The notes below the pieces were generated by a model. It worked only from the letters and a program-made list of their open reading frames with translations, was not told the origin of the DNA and made no database searches. Below, piece after piece: positions 3,431 to 33,075 of a stretch of 64,000 nucleotides of DNA. A program made the translations under genes and the position numbers. Positions within the stretch are counted from its first letter, which is position 1; the number at the start of each line of letters is the position of its first letter. The DNA comes from Amnibacterium kyonggiense (GTDB lineage Bacteria > Actinomycetota > Actinomycetes > Actinomycetales > Microbacteriaceae): the NCBI RefSeq assembly GCF_004364555.1, contig NZ_SOAM01000001.1:248001-312000 (forward strand), given 5' to 3'.

Positions 3431-4577
3431 TCCTCCTGCGCCCCAGCGACAGCAGCACGACCAGCGCCGCGATCGCGATGCCGCCCGCGAGGAAGAAGTC
3501 GAAGGCGATGCCGAACCGGCCCACCCCAACACCGCCGACGACGGAGCCGAGGGAGATCGCGATCTGGATCGTGCTCACGAACAGCGCGAGGCTGCCGTCC
3601 GACGCGGAGGGCGCCGCCCGCGACATCCACGTCTGCAGCCCGAGCGGGAGCGCGCCCCAGACGAAGCCCCACACGACGAGCAGCACCAGGACGCCCGGCA
3701 GCGACCAGGCGAGCAGCGGCAGAGCGACGACCGCGAGGGCGAGCACGACCTTCGTGACGGCGAGCGTGCCCGTGACGCTGCGGCTCAGCGTCACGCCCGC
3801 GACGAAGTTGCCCGCGATCCCGGCGACGCCGAACGCGAGCAGCGCGATCGTGACCACGGTCGGCGAGACGCGGACCAGGTCCTCGAGGTACGGCGCGACA
3901 TAGGTGTACGCCGAGAACTGGGCGATGAACGCGAGCGCGGTGGCGATGAGCCCGATCCGGGCGCGGGGGACGCGGAGGAGCTCGCCGAGCGTGCCGAAGC
4001 GGACCCGCTGCTGCGACGGGATCCGGGGCAGGAGGACGAGCTGCAGCGCGAGGGCGACCACGCCGAGCGCGGCGCCGATGACGAACGCGAGGCGCCAGGT
4101 CGCGACCGCGGAGACGAGGGCGCCGAGCGGGAGGCTGACGACGGTCGCGACGGAGACGCCGCCGGTGATCAGCGAGGTCGCGCGGATGACGGCGCTCTCG
4201 CGGACCAGGCGCCCCGCGATGCCCGCGCCGAGCGCCCAGAAGCCGCCGATGCAGAGCCCGAGCAGCATTCGCGACGCGAGCAGGACGCCGAAGGTCGGCG
4301 CGATCGCCCCGAGCACGTCGGCGACGACGAGCAGCGCCACGAGCGACCACAGCACGGTCCGCCGGTCGACGCGCGAGGTGAACACGGTCACCACCGGCGC
4401 CCCGATCGCGCCGGTGAGCGCGGTGACGACCACCATCAGGCCGGCCGTCCCGACGCCGATGCGCAGGTCGGCGGCGATGGCGGGCAGCAGGCCGATCGGC
4501 AGGAACTCGGACAGCACGAGCACGAAGGAGCCGAGCGCGACGGACAGCACCGCGACCCACCCCCGGCGGTCGCTCAT
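3390..4577 (-). CDS. MFS efflux transporter (AraJ/sugar-efflux type)
   Basis: 395 residues from ATG 4577 (a GTG at 4613 would add 12 residues). Twelve hydrophobic segments cover the length, with the drug-efflux H+ antiporter-1 look: an N-terminal SEFLPIGLLPAIAADL in helix 1, a basic loop after helix 2 (SRVDRRTV), and GGFWALGAGIAGRL. The closest well-known relatives are the AraJ/YdhP/purine-efflux group of the major facilitator superfamily at the plasma membrane. The substrate is unknown. The gene ends 39 bp from tRNA-Ser and is divergent from the small membrane gene at 4820. Confidence 0.85.
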   Translation of the reverse strand: MSDRRGWVAVLSVALGSFVLVLSEFLPIGLLPAIAADLRIGVGTAGLMVVVTALTGAIGAPVVTVFTSRVDRRTVLWSLVALLVVADVLGAIAPTFGVLLASRMLLGLCIGGFWALGAGIAGRLVRESAVIRATSLITGGVSVATVVSLPLGALVSAVATWRLAFVIGAALGVVALALQLVLLPRIPSQQRVRFGTLGELLRVPRARIGLIATALAFIAQFSAYTYVAPYLEDLVRVSPTVVTIALLAFGVAGIAGNFVAGVTLSRSVTGTLAVTKVVLALAVVALPLLAWSLPGVLVLLVVWGFVWGALPLGLQTWMSRAAPSASDGSLALFVSTIQIAISLGSVVGGVGVGRFGIAFDFFLAGGIAIAALVVLLSLGRRRITVRAASPTPEPC

Positions 4578-4819
4578 CGGGCGCGGTTCGGCGACTGCGG
4601 GATCGGCGGTCACGGGGCTCCAGACGTCGCATTCGGAGGGGCGCCGTCCGGCCTCGCAGCAGGCACGCCCGCATCGGCTCGGAGGGGCGCAACCGCGGTC
4701 CGCATCGGCGTATGCCCGGCCGCTCGTCCGCGCCCGGCCGGGCGCGTCGACGCCCCCGTCGGCGGCGGGTTCGAGGGGCGTCCTTCCCGCCGCGGAGGTC
4801 GGAGGCGGAGGATGGTGCC

Positions 4820-28952: not shown

Positions 28953-29993
28953 TCAGGCGCGGGCGAGGAGGCGCTCCGCCGCCGCGACGACCTCCGTCGG
29001 CGCGACCGAGGTGAGGCACGGGTGCCCGGGCACGGGGCAGAGCGTCGCGCGCGACCCGCGGCAGGCGGCGTCCCGCCGGCCGAGCAGCTCGACCGGGACG
29101 CCGTAGGGCGCCCAGCGCTCCGGCGGCACCACCGCGGAGAAGAGGCTCACGATCGGCCGGCCGACGGCGGCGGCCAGGTGCGCCGGCCCGGTGTTGCCGA
29201 CGATGACCGCGGACGCCCCGGCGAGCGCCTGGGCCGTGCCCCCGAGGTCGAGCCGGCCGCCGAGGTCGATGCCGCGCTCCCCCGCGACCGCCGCGGTGAG
29301 GGCGCGCTCGTGCTCGCCGCCGGTCACCACGACCCGGTGCCCCGCCTCGACGAGGAGGCGCACCACCTCCGTGAAGTGGTGGGCCGGGTACTCGCGCGCC
29401 GGGTACTGCGCACCGGGGTGCACGACGAGGTACTCGTCGGGCAGGTCGTCGAGCGCTGCCGGACGGGTGTCCGGCAGGTCCACGCGGAGGGCGCCGTCGT
29501 CGCCCTCGGGCAGCGCGTAGCCGGCGAGCCGCACGATCGCGAGGTTCCGCTCGGGCTCCGGGATGTCCTCGGGGAACGTCTCGCCCGGGATCCACCGTCC
29601 GTCGAGCAGGCCGGCGGAGGCCTCGACCGACGCGCCGAGGATGCGCGGGACGCCGGCCAGCCGCAGCAGGAGGGCGATCGGCAGCGGCGACTGGTGGGCC
29701 GCGGTGAGGATGATCGCCTCGTCGGGCCGGCACTCCTCGACGACCGCGTCCACCTCGGCGACGAGGGCCGCGTCGACCGGGCGGTCCACGGCCGTGATCC
29801 ACGGGACGCCGACGATCCGCAGCTCGTCGACGCCGGGCAGCAGCCGTGCGGCGGACTTCCCGCGCGGACCGCCGAGGAACCAGACCTCGGTGTCCTCGCG
29901 GGCGGCGACGGCGCGGACGGCGGGGCCGGCCATGATCACGTCGCCCATGCTGTCCAGGCGGACGACGAGGATCCGCCGCGTCGCGGTCGTCAC
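28953..29993 (-). CDS. Glycosyltransferase family 9 protein
   Basis: 346 residues from GTG 29993. GT-B fold with an N-terminal ILVVRLDSMGDVIMAGPAVRA, LVVHPGAQYPARE at the start of the nucleotide-sugar domain, and GNTGPAHLAAAVGRPIVSLFS at the donor site, as in the GT9 (heptosyltransferase) family. Cys cluster (ACRGSRATLCPVPGHPC) near the C terminus is seen in several GT9 proteins. In a Gram-positive it cannot build LPS core; an envelope glycan or glycolipid is the likely acceptor. Confidence 0.85.
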   Translation of the reverse strand: MTTATRRILVVRLDSMGDVIMAGPAVRAVAAREDTEVWFLGGPRGKSAARLLPGVDELRIVGVPWITAVDRPVDAALVAEVDAVVEECRPDEAIILTAAHQSPLPIALLLRLAGVPRILGASVEASAGLLDGRWIPGETFPEDIPEPERNLAIVRLAGYALPEGDDGALRVDLPDTRPAALDDLPDEYLVVHPGAQYPAREYPAHHFTEVVRLLVEAGHRVVVTGGEHERALTAAVAGERGIDLGGRLDLGGTAQALAGASAVIVGNTGPAHLAAAVGRPIVSLFSAVVPPERWAPYGVPVELLGRRDAACRGSRATLCPVPGHPCLTSVAPTEVVAAAERLLARA

Positions 29994-30611: not shown

Positions 30612-31745
30612 CTACACCAGTCTGGGATTCCGCTGCAAGGGGTTGCGCGCGGCTGCACCCTCCCGAGCGACCTGCTCGAAGAGCTCGACCGCCGCGTCGC
30701 GCACGTCGTCCTCGTGGACGTCGTGGGTCGCGCTGGCGCCGTGGCCGCACCAGCCGTCGAGCACCCGCAGCCCGCACACCCGGCAGCCGCCGTGCCAGGA
30801 CACGAGCGCACGATGGCGGGCCCTCGTCAGCGGCGCGACGTCCGCGAGGTTGGCGTGGGTGAAGACCGCGACGGTGGCCGTGCCGACCGCCGCCGCGATG
30901 TGCCGCGGGCCGGAGTCGTTGGCGAGCAGGAGGTCGGCACGGGCGAGCAGGCCGACGAGGCCCGGCAGCGCGAGGCCGCCGACGATCGTCTGCACGTCGC
31001 CGCCGAAGCCGCGGGCGACGGCGGCGACGCGGTCGGCCTCGGAGGGGCCGCCCACGACGACGACCCGGGCGCCGCGGTCCGCGAGCACGCGGGCGATCCG
31101 GCCGAGGCGGTCCTCCGGGTAGCACCGGCGCGGATCCGTCGCGCCGGGGTGGACGACGACCAGGGGCTCGTCCGTCGCCGGCACGACGGCGAGGGAGGCC
31201 GTCAGGTCGGCGTCCGTGACCGCGAGCTCGGGCTCGAGCCGCACGGGCGGTGCGCCGGCCGCGCCGACGACCTCCAGCCAGCGGAGCGTGTCGTGCTGGA
31301 ACGACGTGTAGGGCACCCAGCGGTCCGGCTTCGGCGCGTCGGGGGTGGCCGCGCCGACCGTCGTCGCCGCGCCGAGCCGCAGCAGGAGGCGGTTCGAGTT
31401 GCCGCCGCCGCCGTGGAGCTGGACGGCGAGGTCGTACGACTCCGCGCGCCGGTCGGCGGCCCAGGCGTCGATCTCCGCCTCGGTCGCGTCCGGCGCGTCC
31501 GACCCGACGCGCACCCCGTGCACGGGCGGGACGACGACGACCCGGTCGACCGGGGCCGGGCGGTCGGCGAGCAGGGCGGCCGTGTGGGCGGCGCCGAGCA
31601 GCGTGATCTCCGCGTCCGGGTACGCGGCCCGGAGCGCGGCGAGCGCGGGCTCGCCCACGACGTAGTCGCCGAGGCCGTTCGCGCGGAGCACGGCGATCCG
31701 GCGGACGTCGGGGAGGGGCGCGGACGCGGCGTGCAGCGGGTTCAT
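30612..31745 (-). CDS. Second glycosyltransferase family 9 protein
   Basis: 377 residues from ATG 31745. IAVLRANGLGDYVVGEPALAAL at the N terminus, LVVVHPGATDPRRCYP in mid-protein and LANDSGPRHIAAAVGTATVAVF at the donor site are the GT9 hallmarks. Cys/His cluster WHGGCRVCGLRVLDGWCGHG near the C terminus may bind metal. With the gene at 28953 and the YagU-like gene it forms a same-strand group likely acting on an envelope glycan. Confidence 0.85.
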   Translation of the reverse strand: MNPLHAASAPLPDVRRIAVLRANGLGDYVVGEPALAALRAAYPDAEITLLGAAHTAALLADRPAPVDRVVVVPPVHGVRVGSDAPDATEAEIDAWAADRRAESYDLAVQLHGGGGNSNRLLLRLGAATTVGAATPDAPKPDRWVPYTSFQHDTLRWLEVVGAAGAPPVRLEPELAVTDADLTASLAVVPATDEPLVVVHPGATDPRRCYPEDRLGRIARVLADRGARVVVVGGPSEADRVAAVARGFGGDVQTIVGGLALPGLVGLLARADLLLANDSGPRHIAAAVGTATVAVFTHANLADVAPLTRARHRALVSWHGGCRVCGLRVLDGWCGHGASATHDVHEDDVRDAAVELFEQVAREGAAARNPLQRNPRLV

Positions 31746-31789: not shown

Positions 31790-32434
31790 TCAGCGAACGA
31801 GGGCGACGACGAGCGCGGCGAGGAGGACGCCGGGCGCCGCGGCGGCGACGAGGTCCGACGTCGCGACCCCGGGTCGATCGCGGCGCCGGTACGCGAGCAC
31901 GAACTCCGCGATGCTCGCCGCGAGGACGACGAGCGTCAGGACCCGCACGGCCGGCCCGGGACCGGTCCCCGCGAGCCCCGCCCCGATCTGCGTGAAGGCG
32001 ACGACGCCCCACGGCACCACGCCGAGCACCGACCACCAGCGGAGCGCCGCCGGACGCCCGTCCGGCCGGTGCAGCGACCGGAGGAGCACCCCGCCCGCGG
32101 AGGAGGCGTAGACGAGCACGAGCGCCATCGCGTCGAGGACGCCGTTCAGGCGGGCGACGAGGAAGAGGACGATCGGCGCCGCAGCACCGGAGGCCCACAC
32201 GGCCGCCGACCGGTCGAGCCGGCCGGTCGCGTGGAGACCCGCCGCGACGGCGACGAGGAGCGGCGGGACGAGGACGGCGGCCGCGCCCTGGACGGCCGCG
32301 ATCCGCACGGACGCGGCGCCGAGGTGCGCGACCACGGGCAGCTCGAGCGGGTCGCGGAGCACGGCCGCGACGCCGAGGACGACCACGACGACGAGCAGCG
32401 CCGCGGCGAGCACGGCCGACCCCGGCCGGGTCAC
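31790..32434 (-). CDS. Seven-helix membrane protein resembling heliorhodopsin, without the retinal lysine
   Basis: 214 residues from GTG 32434, overlapping the phosphatase stop (GTGA). Seven hydrophobic segments: about 6-26, 43-67, 78-97, 99-120, 130-156, 163-183, 193-213. From memory of heliorhodopsin 48C12, helices 3-7 align well: ASGAAAPIVLFLVARLNGVL with its SSSVMIVLIAQICGIAD, WSVLGVVPWGVV with its GCIAGIVPWIGLL, and the helix 6-7 region AEFVLAYRRRD ... DLVAAAAPGVLLAALVV with ALVQYLQYKGK ... YIVLSLVAKSALAWQIF. The Schiff-base lysine position is Pro/Gly here, so it cannot bind retinal covalently. No search was run. Confidence 0.6.
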   Translation of the reverse strand: MTRPGSAVLAAALLVVVVVLGVAAVLRDPLELPVVAHLGAASVRIAAVQGAAAVLVPPLLVAVAAGLHATGRLDRSAAVWASGAAAPIVLFLVARLNGVLDAMALVLVYASSAGGVLLRSLHRPDGRPAALRWWSVLGVVPWGVVAFTQIGAGLAGTGPGPAVRVLTLVVLAASIAEFVLAYRRRDRPGVATSDLVAAAAPGVLLAALVVALVR

Positions 32435-33075
32435 GGGACGGCGGATCCGGTCGGGTCGCTGTCCGGCGCGGTGAAGCGCCGGTCCGTCCAGCTCTCGACG
32501 AACCACGGCCCGGAGCCCGAGCGCTCGAGGACGACGACGCCGGTGTTCGGCAGGCCGTGCTCGGCGCCGAAGTCGTCCGCGACGTTCGCGCCGCGCGCCG
32601 TCGCCCAGGTGCGGATCGCGGCGCCGTGGCTCACGCAGAGCACCGTGCCGCCGTCGGCGACCGCGGTCTCGACGGCCGCGTCGTAGCGCGCGAAGAAGTC
32701 GGTGCCCGTCTCGGGCGCGCCCGGCATCGTCGCCGACAGGTCGCCCTCCGCCCAGGCGAAGATCGTGCGGAGGTACGCGAGGTGCGAGTCGCGGTCCGCG
32801 TTCAGCTCGAGGTCGCCGGCGAGGATCTCCCGCAGCCCGGCGTCGGTGCGGAGTTCGAGGCCGTGCTCGCGCGCGATCGGCCCGGCCGTCTGCACGGTCC
32901 GCGCGAGCGGGGACGCGACGACCCGGTCGATCCGCTCGGCCGCGAGCACGTCGACCAGCGCCGCCGCCTGCTCCCGGCCGAGCGTCGTCAGGTCGGCGCC
33001 CGGCGCCGCGGTGTCGAGCAGGCCCTGCACGTTCGACCGGGTCTGCCCGTGCCGGACGAGGATCAGACGGGACAT
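32431..33075 (-). CDS. Histidine phosphatase (phosphoglycerate-mutase-like)
   Basis: 214 residues from ATG 33075. LVRHGQTRSNVQGLLD carries the phospho-accepting His, SPLARTVQTA the second Arg, and CVSHGAAIRTW the second catalytic His. This is branch-1 of the histidine phosphatase superfamily; substrates range from sugar phosphates to alpha-ribazole-phosphate. It is the first gene of a two-gene unit with the heliorhodopsin-like protein. Confidence 0.9.
   Translation of the reverse strand: MSRLILVRHGQTRSNVQGLLDTAAPGADLTTLGREQAAALVDVLAAERIDRVVASPLARTVQTAGPIAREHGLELRTDAGLREILAGDLELNADRDSHLAYLRTIFAWAEGDLSATMPGAPETGTDFFARYDAAVETAVADGGTVLCVSHGAAIRTWATARGANVADDFGAEHGLPNTGVVVLERSGSGPWFVESWTDRRFTAPDSDPTGSAVP

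Follow-up and report, generated by a model that had tools for sequence, protein, structure and literature searches.

Lysine-less members of the type-1 rhodopsins (Rh-noK) were reportedly described by Yamauchi in 2019. Non-light roles have been proposed for the Rh-noK, or opsin-related proteins, in the available portions of Becker 2016 (PMC4915679) and of a study on G. theta (PMC7714340). The latter study assigns about 600 of the 5,558 genes for microbial rhodopsins "including HeRs" (heliorhodopsins) to the Rh-noK; since HeRs are included in this count, earlier tallies may already contain lysine-less HeRs. The FArhodopsins are presented in the accessible text of PMC10308929 as a widespread paralogue of proteorhodopsin with a flotillin gene beside it, most freshwater members of which carry no lysine. 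In the survey of PMC9601134, as its available sections describe it, the helix-7 lysine was a condition of inclusion, and surveys that demand it would miss sequences of this kind.

The HeRs (type-3 rhodopsins, PF18761), such as 48C12 and TaHeR, are the family to which the present locus is compared, and what they do is still mostly open. The roles of the retinal-site residues of 48C12, including the retinal-flanking F206, were taken from the available parts of PMC6951262 and PMC9385722; according to the former, the long A-B loop of 48C12 is required for the dimer and for retinal binding. The actinobacterial HeR of IMCC26103 binds glutamine synthetase, with a 1.5-fold rise of kcat/Km in the dark (PMC9529153). 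Because this HeR changes the activity of its partner in the dark as well, the HeR scaffold can act without light. An ABC-transporter partner of HeR is reported in the accessible part of PMC11109279.

In the 64,000-nucleotide stretch of DNA analysed here (the window), a gene was found whose product belongs to a single HeR-derived clade of its bacterial family, which is without the retinal lysine and under selection. The window protein resembles the HeRs in its near full-length homology, its seven helices, the VPW motif of helix 5 and a predicted charge pattern that would fit an N-terminus inside. Unlike the HeRs, it has no Schiff-base lysine; the counterion is missing in its genus, the flanking aromatics and both histidines of the site are lost, the A-B loop is shorter and its clade has invariant residues of its own. 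The Rh-noK, as far as the available sources describe them, are likewise opsin-fold relatives without the retinal lysine, often in genomes with lysine-bearing rhodopsins. However, they derive from type-1 rhodopsins (PF01036), whereas the clade described here is derived from HeRs and matches only PF18761. No description of a lysine-less HeR clade was found in the literature searched, which covered the HeR papers partially and few subscription journals.

The gene and its product

The features considered below are as follows.

31790..32434, minus strand: gene of the lysine-less HeR homologue, with GTG start and TGA stop, 214 aa
31829..31831, minus strand: codon of Gly202, which the alignment of 96 proteins places opposite the Schiff-base lysine, K241 in HeR 48C12
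32006..32017, minus strand: codons of VPWG (residues 140–143) in helix 5, from the alignment
32144..32146, minus strand: codon of Asn97, which belongs to the LNG motif where helix 3 ends, from the alignment
32431..33075, minus strand: histidine phosphatase, branch 1 (PF00300), whose stop shares 4 nt with the start of the HeR homologue gene
30612..31745, minus strand: glycosyltransferase family 9 (PF01075), whose ATG lies 44 nt downstream of the HeR homologue

The open reading frame that an earlier note on this DNA had placed at 31790–32434 was confirmed on the minus strand, from the GTG codon at 32434 to the TGA codon at 31790–31792. Its G+C contents at the three codon positions are 0.85/0.54/0.96, and the neighbouring genes are alike in this respect. 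The 214 residues of the product include no lysine.

The seven helices claimed in the earlier note were recovered from the alignment with HeRs and are also seen as helix elements in an AlphaFold model of low confidence; in the hydropathy curve alone, helices 3 and 4 run together. The model, which was built from a two-sequence alignment, contains seven helices (pLDDT 48.6, pTM 0.36). With this low-confidence model, Foldseek gave no match at E ≤ 0.001 in the PDB and viral libraries, and none of the PDB entries listed was a HeR. When the loop boundaries were set by hand, 11 positive residues fell in the predicted inner loops versus 3 in the outer ones; this predicted distribution of charge would fit an inverted topology, with the N-terminus inside.

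Homology to heliorhodopsin

The Pfam scan of the window protein listed PF18761 as the sole family up to E 10, with E 0.0026 and 17.6 bits, below the curated cut-off of 26.7. In the NCBIfam scan, the HeR model gave E 0.0057 and 16.2 bits (cut-off 100), and SecD followed more weakly with E 0.17 and 10.6 bits, both being far under their cut-offs. Structures of HeRs were matched by phmmer at E 0.08. A profile of 12 ordinary HeRs scored the window protein at 22.8 bits, a value that neither 2000 full shuffles (best 8.3) nor 2000 segment-preserving shuffles (best 13.6) attained.

The homology with HeRs, as proposed in the earlier note, was settled through 30 relatives that bridge the sequence gap. 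The profile of the 31 lysine-less proteins matched HeR 48C12 (6uh3) significantly, at E 2.4e-38 over residues 10–249 of 252, and TaHeR at E 9.5e-24. The profile search suggested in that note led to the PF18761 family, under the cut-off for the window protein alone and with significance for the 31-protein profile, and the lack of a match that would have spoken against the note was not seen. In profile–profile comparison with the 12 ordinary HeRs, the 31 proteins gave E 3.6e-35; the three sequences of the window's genus alone gave E 9.1e-7 with ordinary HeRs, over helices 1–5. The Pfam scan of the clade members individually matched PF18761 at E ≤ 0.01 in 29 of the 31; this was the only family listed for them, and homology to the type-1 rhodopsins (PF01036) was not found there. 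At the level of sequence, the window protein is confirmed as a homologue of HeR over nearly the full length. An unrelated seven-helix protein and a chance match had also been considered, and both were ruled out by the chain of intermediates and the shuffles.

Distribution and origin of the lysine loss

The family sample consisted of 398 genomes and was searched with the window protein and with PF18761. The matches fell into 67 ordinary HeRs, with 277–326 bits, and a divergent class of 27, with 23–132 bits; a contig-end fragment (129 bits, profile positions 1–126) was kept out of both. With the addition of three genomes matched by the protein alone and of the window's own genome, the lysine-less class has 31 members in 31 of the 398 genomes and 12 of the 85 genera, which is a lower bound because few candidates were scored per genome. 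A scan of genome contigs gave at least one relative among the matches listed, and two scans of viral contigs and a phage search gave no viral copy.

The lysine was absent from the Schiff-base column in all 31 proteins, as the earlier note had claimed for the window protein: the column holds T in 8, A in 6, G in 4, P, V in 3 each, L, F, S in 2 each and R in 1. The Pro/Gly reported at this position corresponds to Gly202, which is aligned with the lysine, and the preceding Pro201. It was also found that 24 of the 31 proteins, with the start codons chosen in this analysis, have no lysine anywhere. Among the Microbacteriaceae relatives, for which a survey of the lysine had been suggested, the residue is therefore missing throughout the divergent class, while all 30 in-family ordinary HeRs fetched, out of the 67 matches, retain it.

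Beyond the family, the search with the divergent profile gave matches in 26 of 396 genomes of the order and in 92 of 346 genomes of the phylum, the window's own genome being included in both. The 25 other matches of the order (one of which, G160, belongs to the same family) and the best 29 of the 91 other matches of the phylum were fetched, and 54 of 54 had the lysine together with the Glu of helix 3. In total, the Schiff-base lysine was present in all 84 ordinary HeRs checked. Since every ordinary HeR fetched from the order, the phylum and the family has the lysine, the divergent class of a single family is, in the genomes sampled, the only place where it was lost.

In the tree of the 96 proteins, one branch (100/100) splits the 31 lysine-less proteins from the 65 ordinary HeRs. 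When the archaeal TaHeR was used as the outgroup and seven fast rows were omitted, the 31 proteins nested among the ordinary HeRs of the phylum. The stem of the clade amounts to 1.22 changes per column, and the exact placement of the clade within the HeRs of the phylum is unsure, given the long branches. An origin inside the family's own HeRs, that is, a recent duplication, was neither shown nor rejected by the AU test (p 0.199 and 0.36). The tree suggests that the retinal lysine was lost once, in a single clade. The dN/dS values, obtained by a simple counting method from DNA of biased composition, were 0.21–0.54 in 9 of 9 pairs, some of which have a member in common; the pairs tested show purifying selection.

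Changes at the retinal site

The columns of the retinal site of 48C12 were examined in the 31 clade proteins. At the column of F206, 29 of them have a small residue (Ala, Ser or Thr), and Y108, the other half of the retinal-flanking aromatic pair, is kept in 3. The histidines of the Schiff-base cavity, H23 and H80, are both present in 65 of 65 ordinary HeRs but are kept in only 3 and 2 of the clade proteins, respectively; in the window protein, they are replaced by Leu and Ala. S237 is retained in 13 proteins. At the column of the helix-3 counterion, E107, 20 proteins have Glu and 4 have Asp, and those of the window's genus have Ala. The A-B loop has 20 residues in the window protein versus a median of 29 in ordinary HeRs, and it is shorter than 29 in 25 of the 31. 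In the H80 column on helix 2, Arg occurs in 21 of the 31, and a charge is unusual at such a site.

The conservation is also distributed differently. From the 65 ordinary HeRs to the clade, the mean value drops from 0.81 to 0.47 for helix 7 and rises from 0.55 to 0.68 for helix 5. The VPW motif that the earlier note had recognized in helix 5 is present at residues 140–142; in the VPWG of the lysine-less proteins, the P, W and G are invariant (31/31), while the same G is found in 1 of the 65 ordinary HeRs. The residue at Asn97 is Asn in all 31 proteins versus 15 of the 65. Together with Asn97, the residues Gly143, Ala146, Thr167 and Leu171 are invariant in the clade, and Tyr109 (30/31) and Gln149 (27/31, with Glu in the other 4) are nearly so. 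The clade's own invariant residues are located on helices 3–6, mostly in the outer half as judged from the order of the helices, and they may form one polar site.

Neighbouring genes

The 4-nt overlap with a histidine phosphatase gene, pointed out in the earlier note, was verified, and the phosphatase was assigned to PF00300. The suggestion that the two products act together fared less well. The overlap is kept in all three genus members where the gene was found, the phosphatases of the others being 70 and 76% identical to that of the window. However, none of 28 relatives outside the genus has a relative of the window phosphatase adjoining the gene (tblastn, E ≤ 1e-5), and the genus members G003, G005 and G006 carry a phosphatase of about 50% identity without a lysine-less HeR gene beside it. 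In G329, a relative of the phosphatase is located about 4 kb from the lysine-less HeR gene.

The PF01075 gene is likewise downstream in G002 and G004. In G001, the contig starts 90 nt before the match to the glycosyltransferase, and the lysine-less HeR gene of this genome may therefore be lost in the gap. The window gene at 30612–31745 was clustered with the family 9 glycosyltransferase genes of the genus relatives, and so was an open reading frame near 29474, about 2.6 kb downstream of the HeR homologue; the two are perhaps a tandem pair.

Various genes are found at the other loci: a LuxR-type regulator in G383, ABC-2 and CDP-glycerol transferase genes in G158, glycosyltransferase and DUF1684 genes in G325 and others of its genus, and a gene related to photolyases, about 0.6 kb upstream of the lysine-less HeR, in G368. 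In G010, the lysine-less HeR gene (L066:6409-7080) shares 4 nt with the gene of a GAF-ANTAR regulator, and an HATPase gene follows downstream; the three may be a signalling unit. The neighbouring frames were taken with a codon-position filter that missed the HeR gene itself in several loci, and 40 chosen neighbours were scanned with Pfam; in this material, no conserved operon partner was found across the clade loci beyond the level of the genus. The 40 proteins included no rhodopsin and no flotillin; the latter sets the clade apart from the FArhodopsins, with which, as the partial source describes them, it shares the pattern of a widespread paralogue with the lysine mostly missing. Open reading frames of G156, G354 and G380, lying 4.2–4.5 kb away and clustered with HeR, were rejected as antisense low-complexity frames without HeR signal.

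Possible functions of the clade

The window protein has a high likelihood of being unable to form a retinal Schiff base and hence of having no ordinary photocycle, so that it would not be a normal photoreceptor. Since the relatives share the lysine-less version, the job is probably independent of light, and a non-photic role seems the most plausible. As a whole, we consider it probable that the clade is HeR-derived, selected and retinal-free; of the roles considered for its members, the most likely is that of a light-independent membrane regulator or sensor, which would have a polar input site and an inner partner. Taken on its own, a light-independent regulator or sensor with inverted HeR topology has, in our judgement, somewhat less than an even chance.

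In this mechanism, the input would come not from retinal but from a polar site of helices 3–6 (Asn97, Tyr109, Gln149 and Thr167, with the small Gly143 and Ala146), situated in their outer half, where HeR holds the retinal amid apolar surroundings. The arginine-rich inner loops could contact a partner protein, by analogy with the HeRs that have glutamine synthetase or an ABC transporter as partners. A single conserved partner is unsupported, because no partner gene is common to the whole clade; the inner partner would differ between genera, and in the window's genus, the histidine phosphatase would be the first candidate. More tentatively, HeR may have given rise, on a single occasion in this bacterial family, to non-photic seven-helix receptors, in which the retinal site, rebuilt into a small polar one (Gln/Glu at 149), reads a chemical instead of light and the inner partners differ between genera.

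Some of the results do not fit the preferred retinal-free reading well. One is that the counterion column is Glu or Asp in 24 of the 31 proteins, which would be needless for a Schiff base in a retinal-free protein. Another is the dN/dS of 0.35–0.54 in the window's genus, a high value if the protein were under strong constraint. The last is that type-1 rhodopsins occur in 26 of the 31 carrier genomes, and this would be compatible with some link to light.

In one alternative, the protein would be an accessory subunit of lysine-bearing rhodopsins, which pairs with a type-1 rhodopsin or an ordinary HeR or hands over retinal or a carotenoid to it; such a role was speculated for lysine-less type-1 rhodopsins beside proteorhodopsin in the available part of PMC10308929. 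Besides the type-1 rhodopsins, Blh is found in 20 of the 31 carriers, and an ordinary HeR stands together with the lysine-less one in 10. In one sample of the family, 58 of 259 non-carriers but 17 of 20 carriers have type-1 rhodopsins (Fisher p 2.6e-8, uncorrected for kinship), a comparison which assumes that its 279 genomes lie within the 398 and include the carriers G127 and G172 (184 match-free genomes are not listed by name). The window's genome, in which no ordinary HeR match was found, has a Blh family gene (PF15461) and three type-1 rhodopsin genes, one of them frame-broken. However, searches for PF15461 (Blh), PF03055 (RPE65-type oxygenase), type-1 rhodopsins and ordinary HeRs were all negative in five of the 31 carriers (G010, G127, G172, G298 and G332), although the first four are at least 98% complete (G332, 81%), and the scanned neighbours include no rhodopsin. 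We regard an accessory subunit as unlikely.

A light receptor that binds retinal, a carotenoid or another pigment non-covalently is less probable still. The acidic residue kept at the counterion column and the presence of Blh in most carriers would agree with it, but the retinal-flanking aromatic pair and both cavity histidines are mostly gone, Ala takes the place of the counterion in the window's genus, and some carriers are without Blh or an RPE65-type enzyme. A decaying remnant that stays open by chance in G+C-rich DNA is hardly credible: the fast evolution seen in the long stem, the upper dN/dS values and the shortened loops would suit it, yet dN/dS is below 0.55 in every pair, and several clade-invariant columns differ from those of ordinary HeRs.

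If the preferred reading of a retinal-free clade holds, the third rhodopsin type, like type 1, would have yielded a pigment-free branch. A natural scaffold that has dispensed with the chromophore lysine, and that ten genomes carry alongside an ordinary HeR, could serve to tell the cellular role of HeRs from the effect of light.

As for the rhodopsins of the window's genome, the type-1 rhodopsin at G000 C3:240831-241481 (locus L163), near the Blh gene at C3:238428-239255, seems to leave frame just before the expected helix-7 lysine, and this break is either a pseudogene or an assembly error; the other two (L164 and L165) keep the helix-7 lysine. Finally, a translated plasmid search with one relative gave two records, each annotated as HeR. 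In the plasmid record NZ_CP141705.1, an annotated heliorhodopsin gene lies at 4176–4655 on a 10.5-kb plasmid of Lactococcus petauri.
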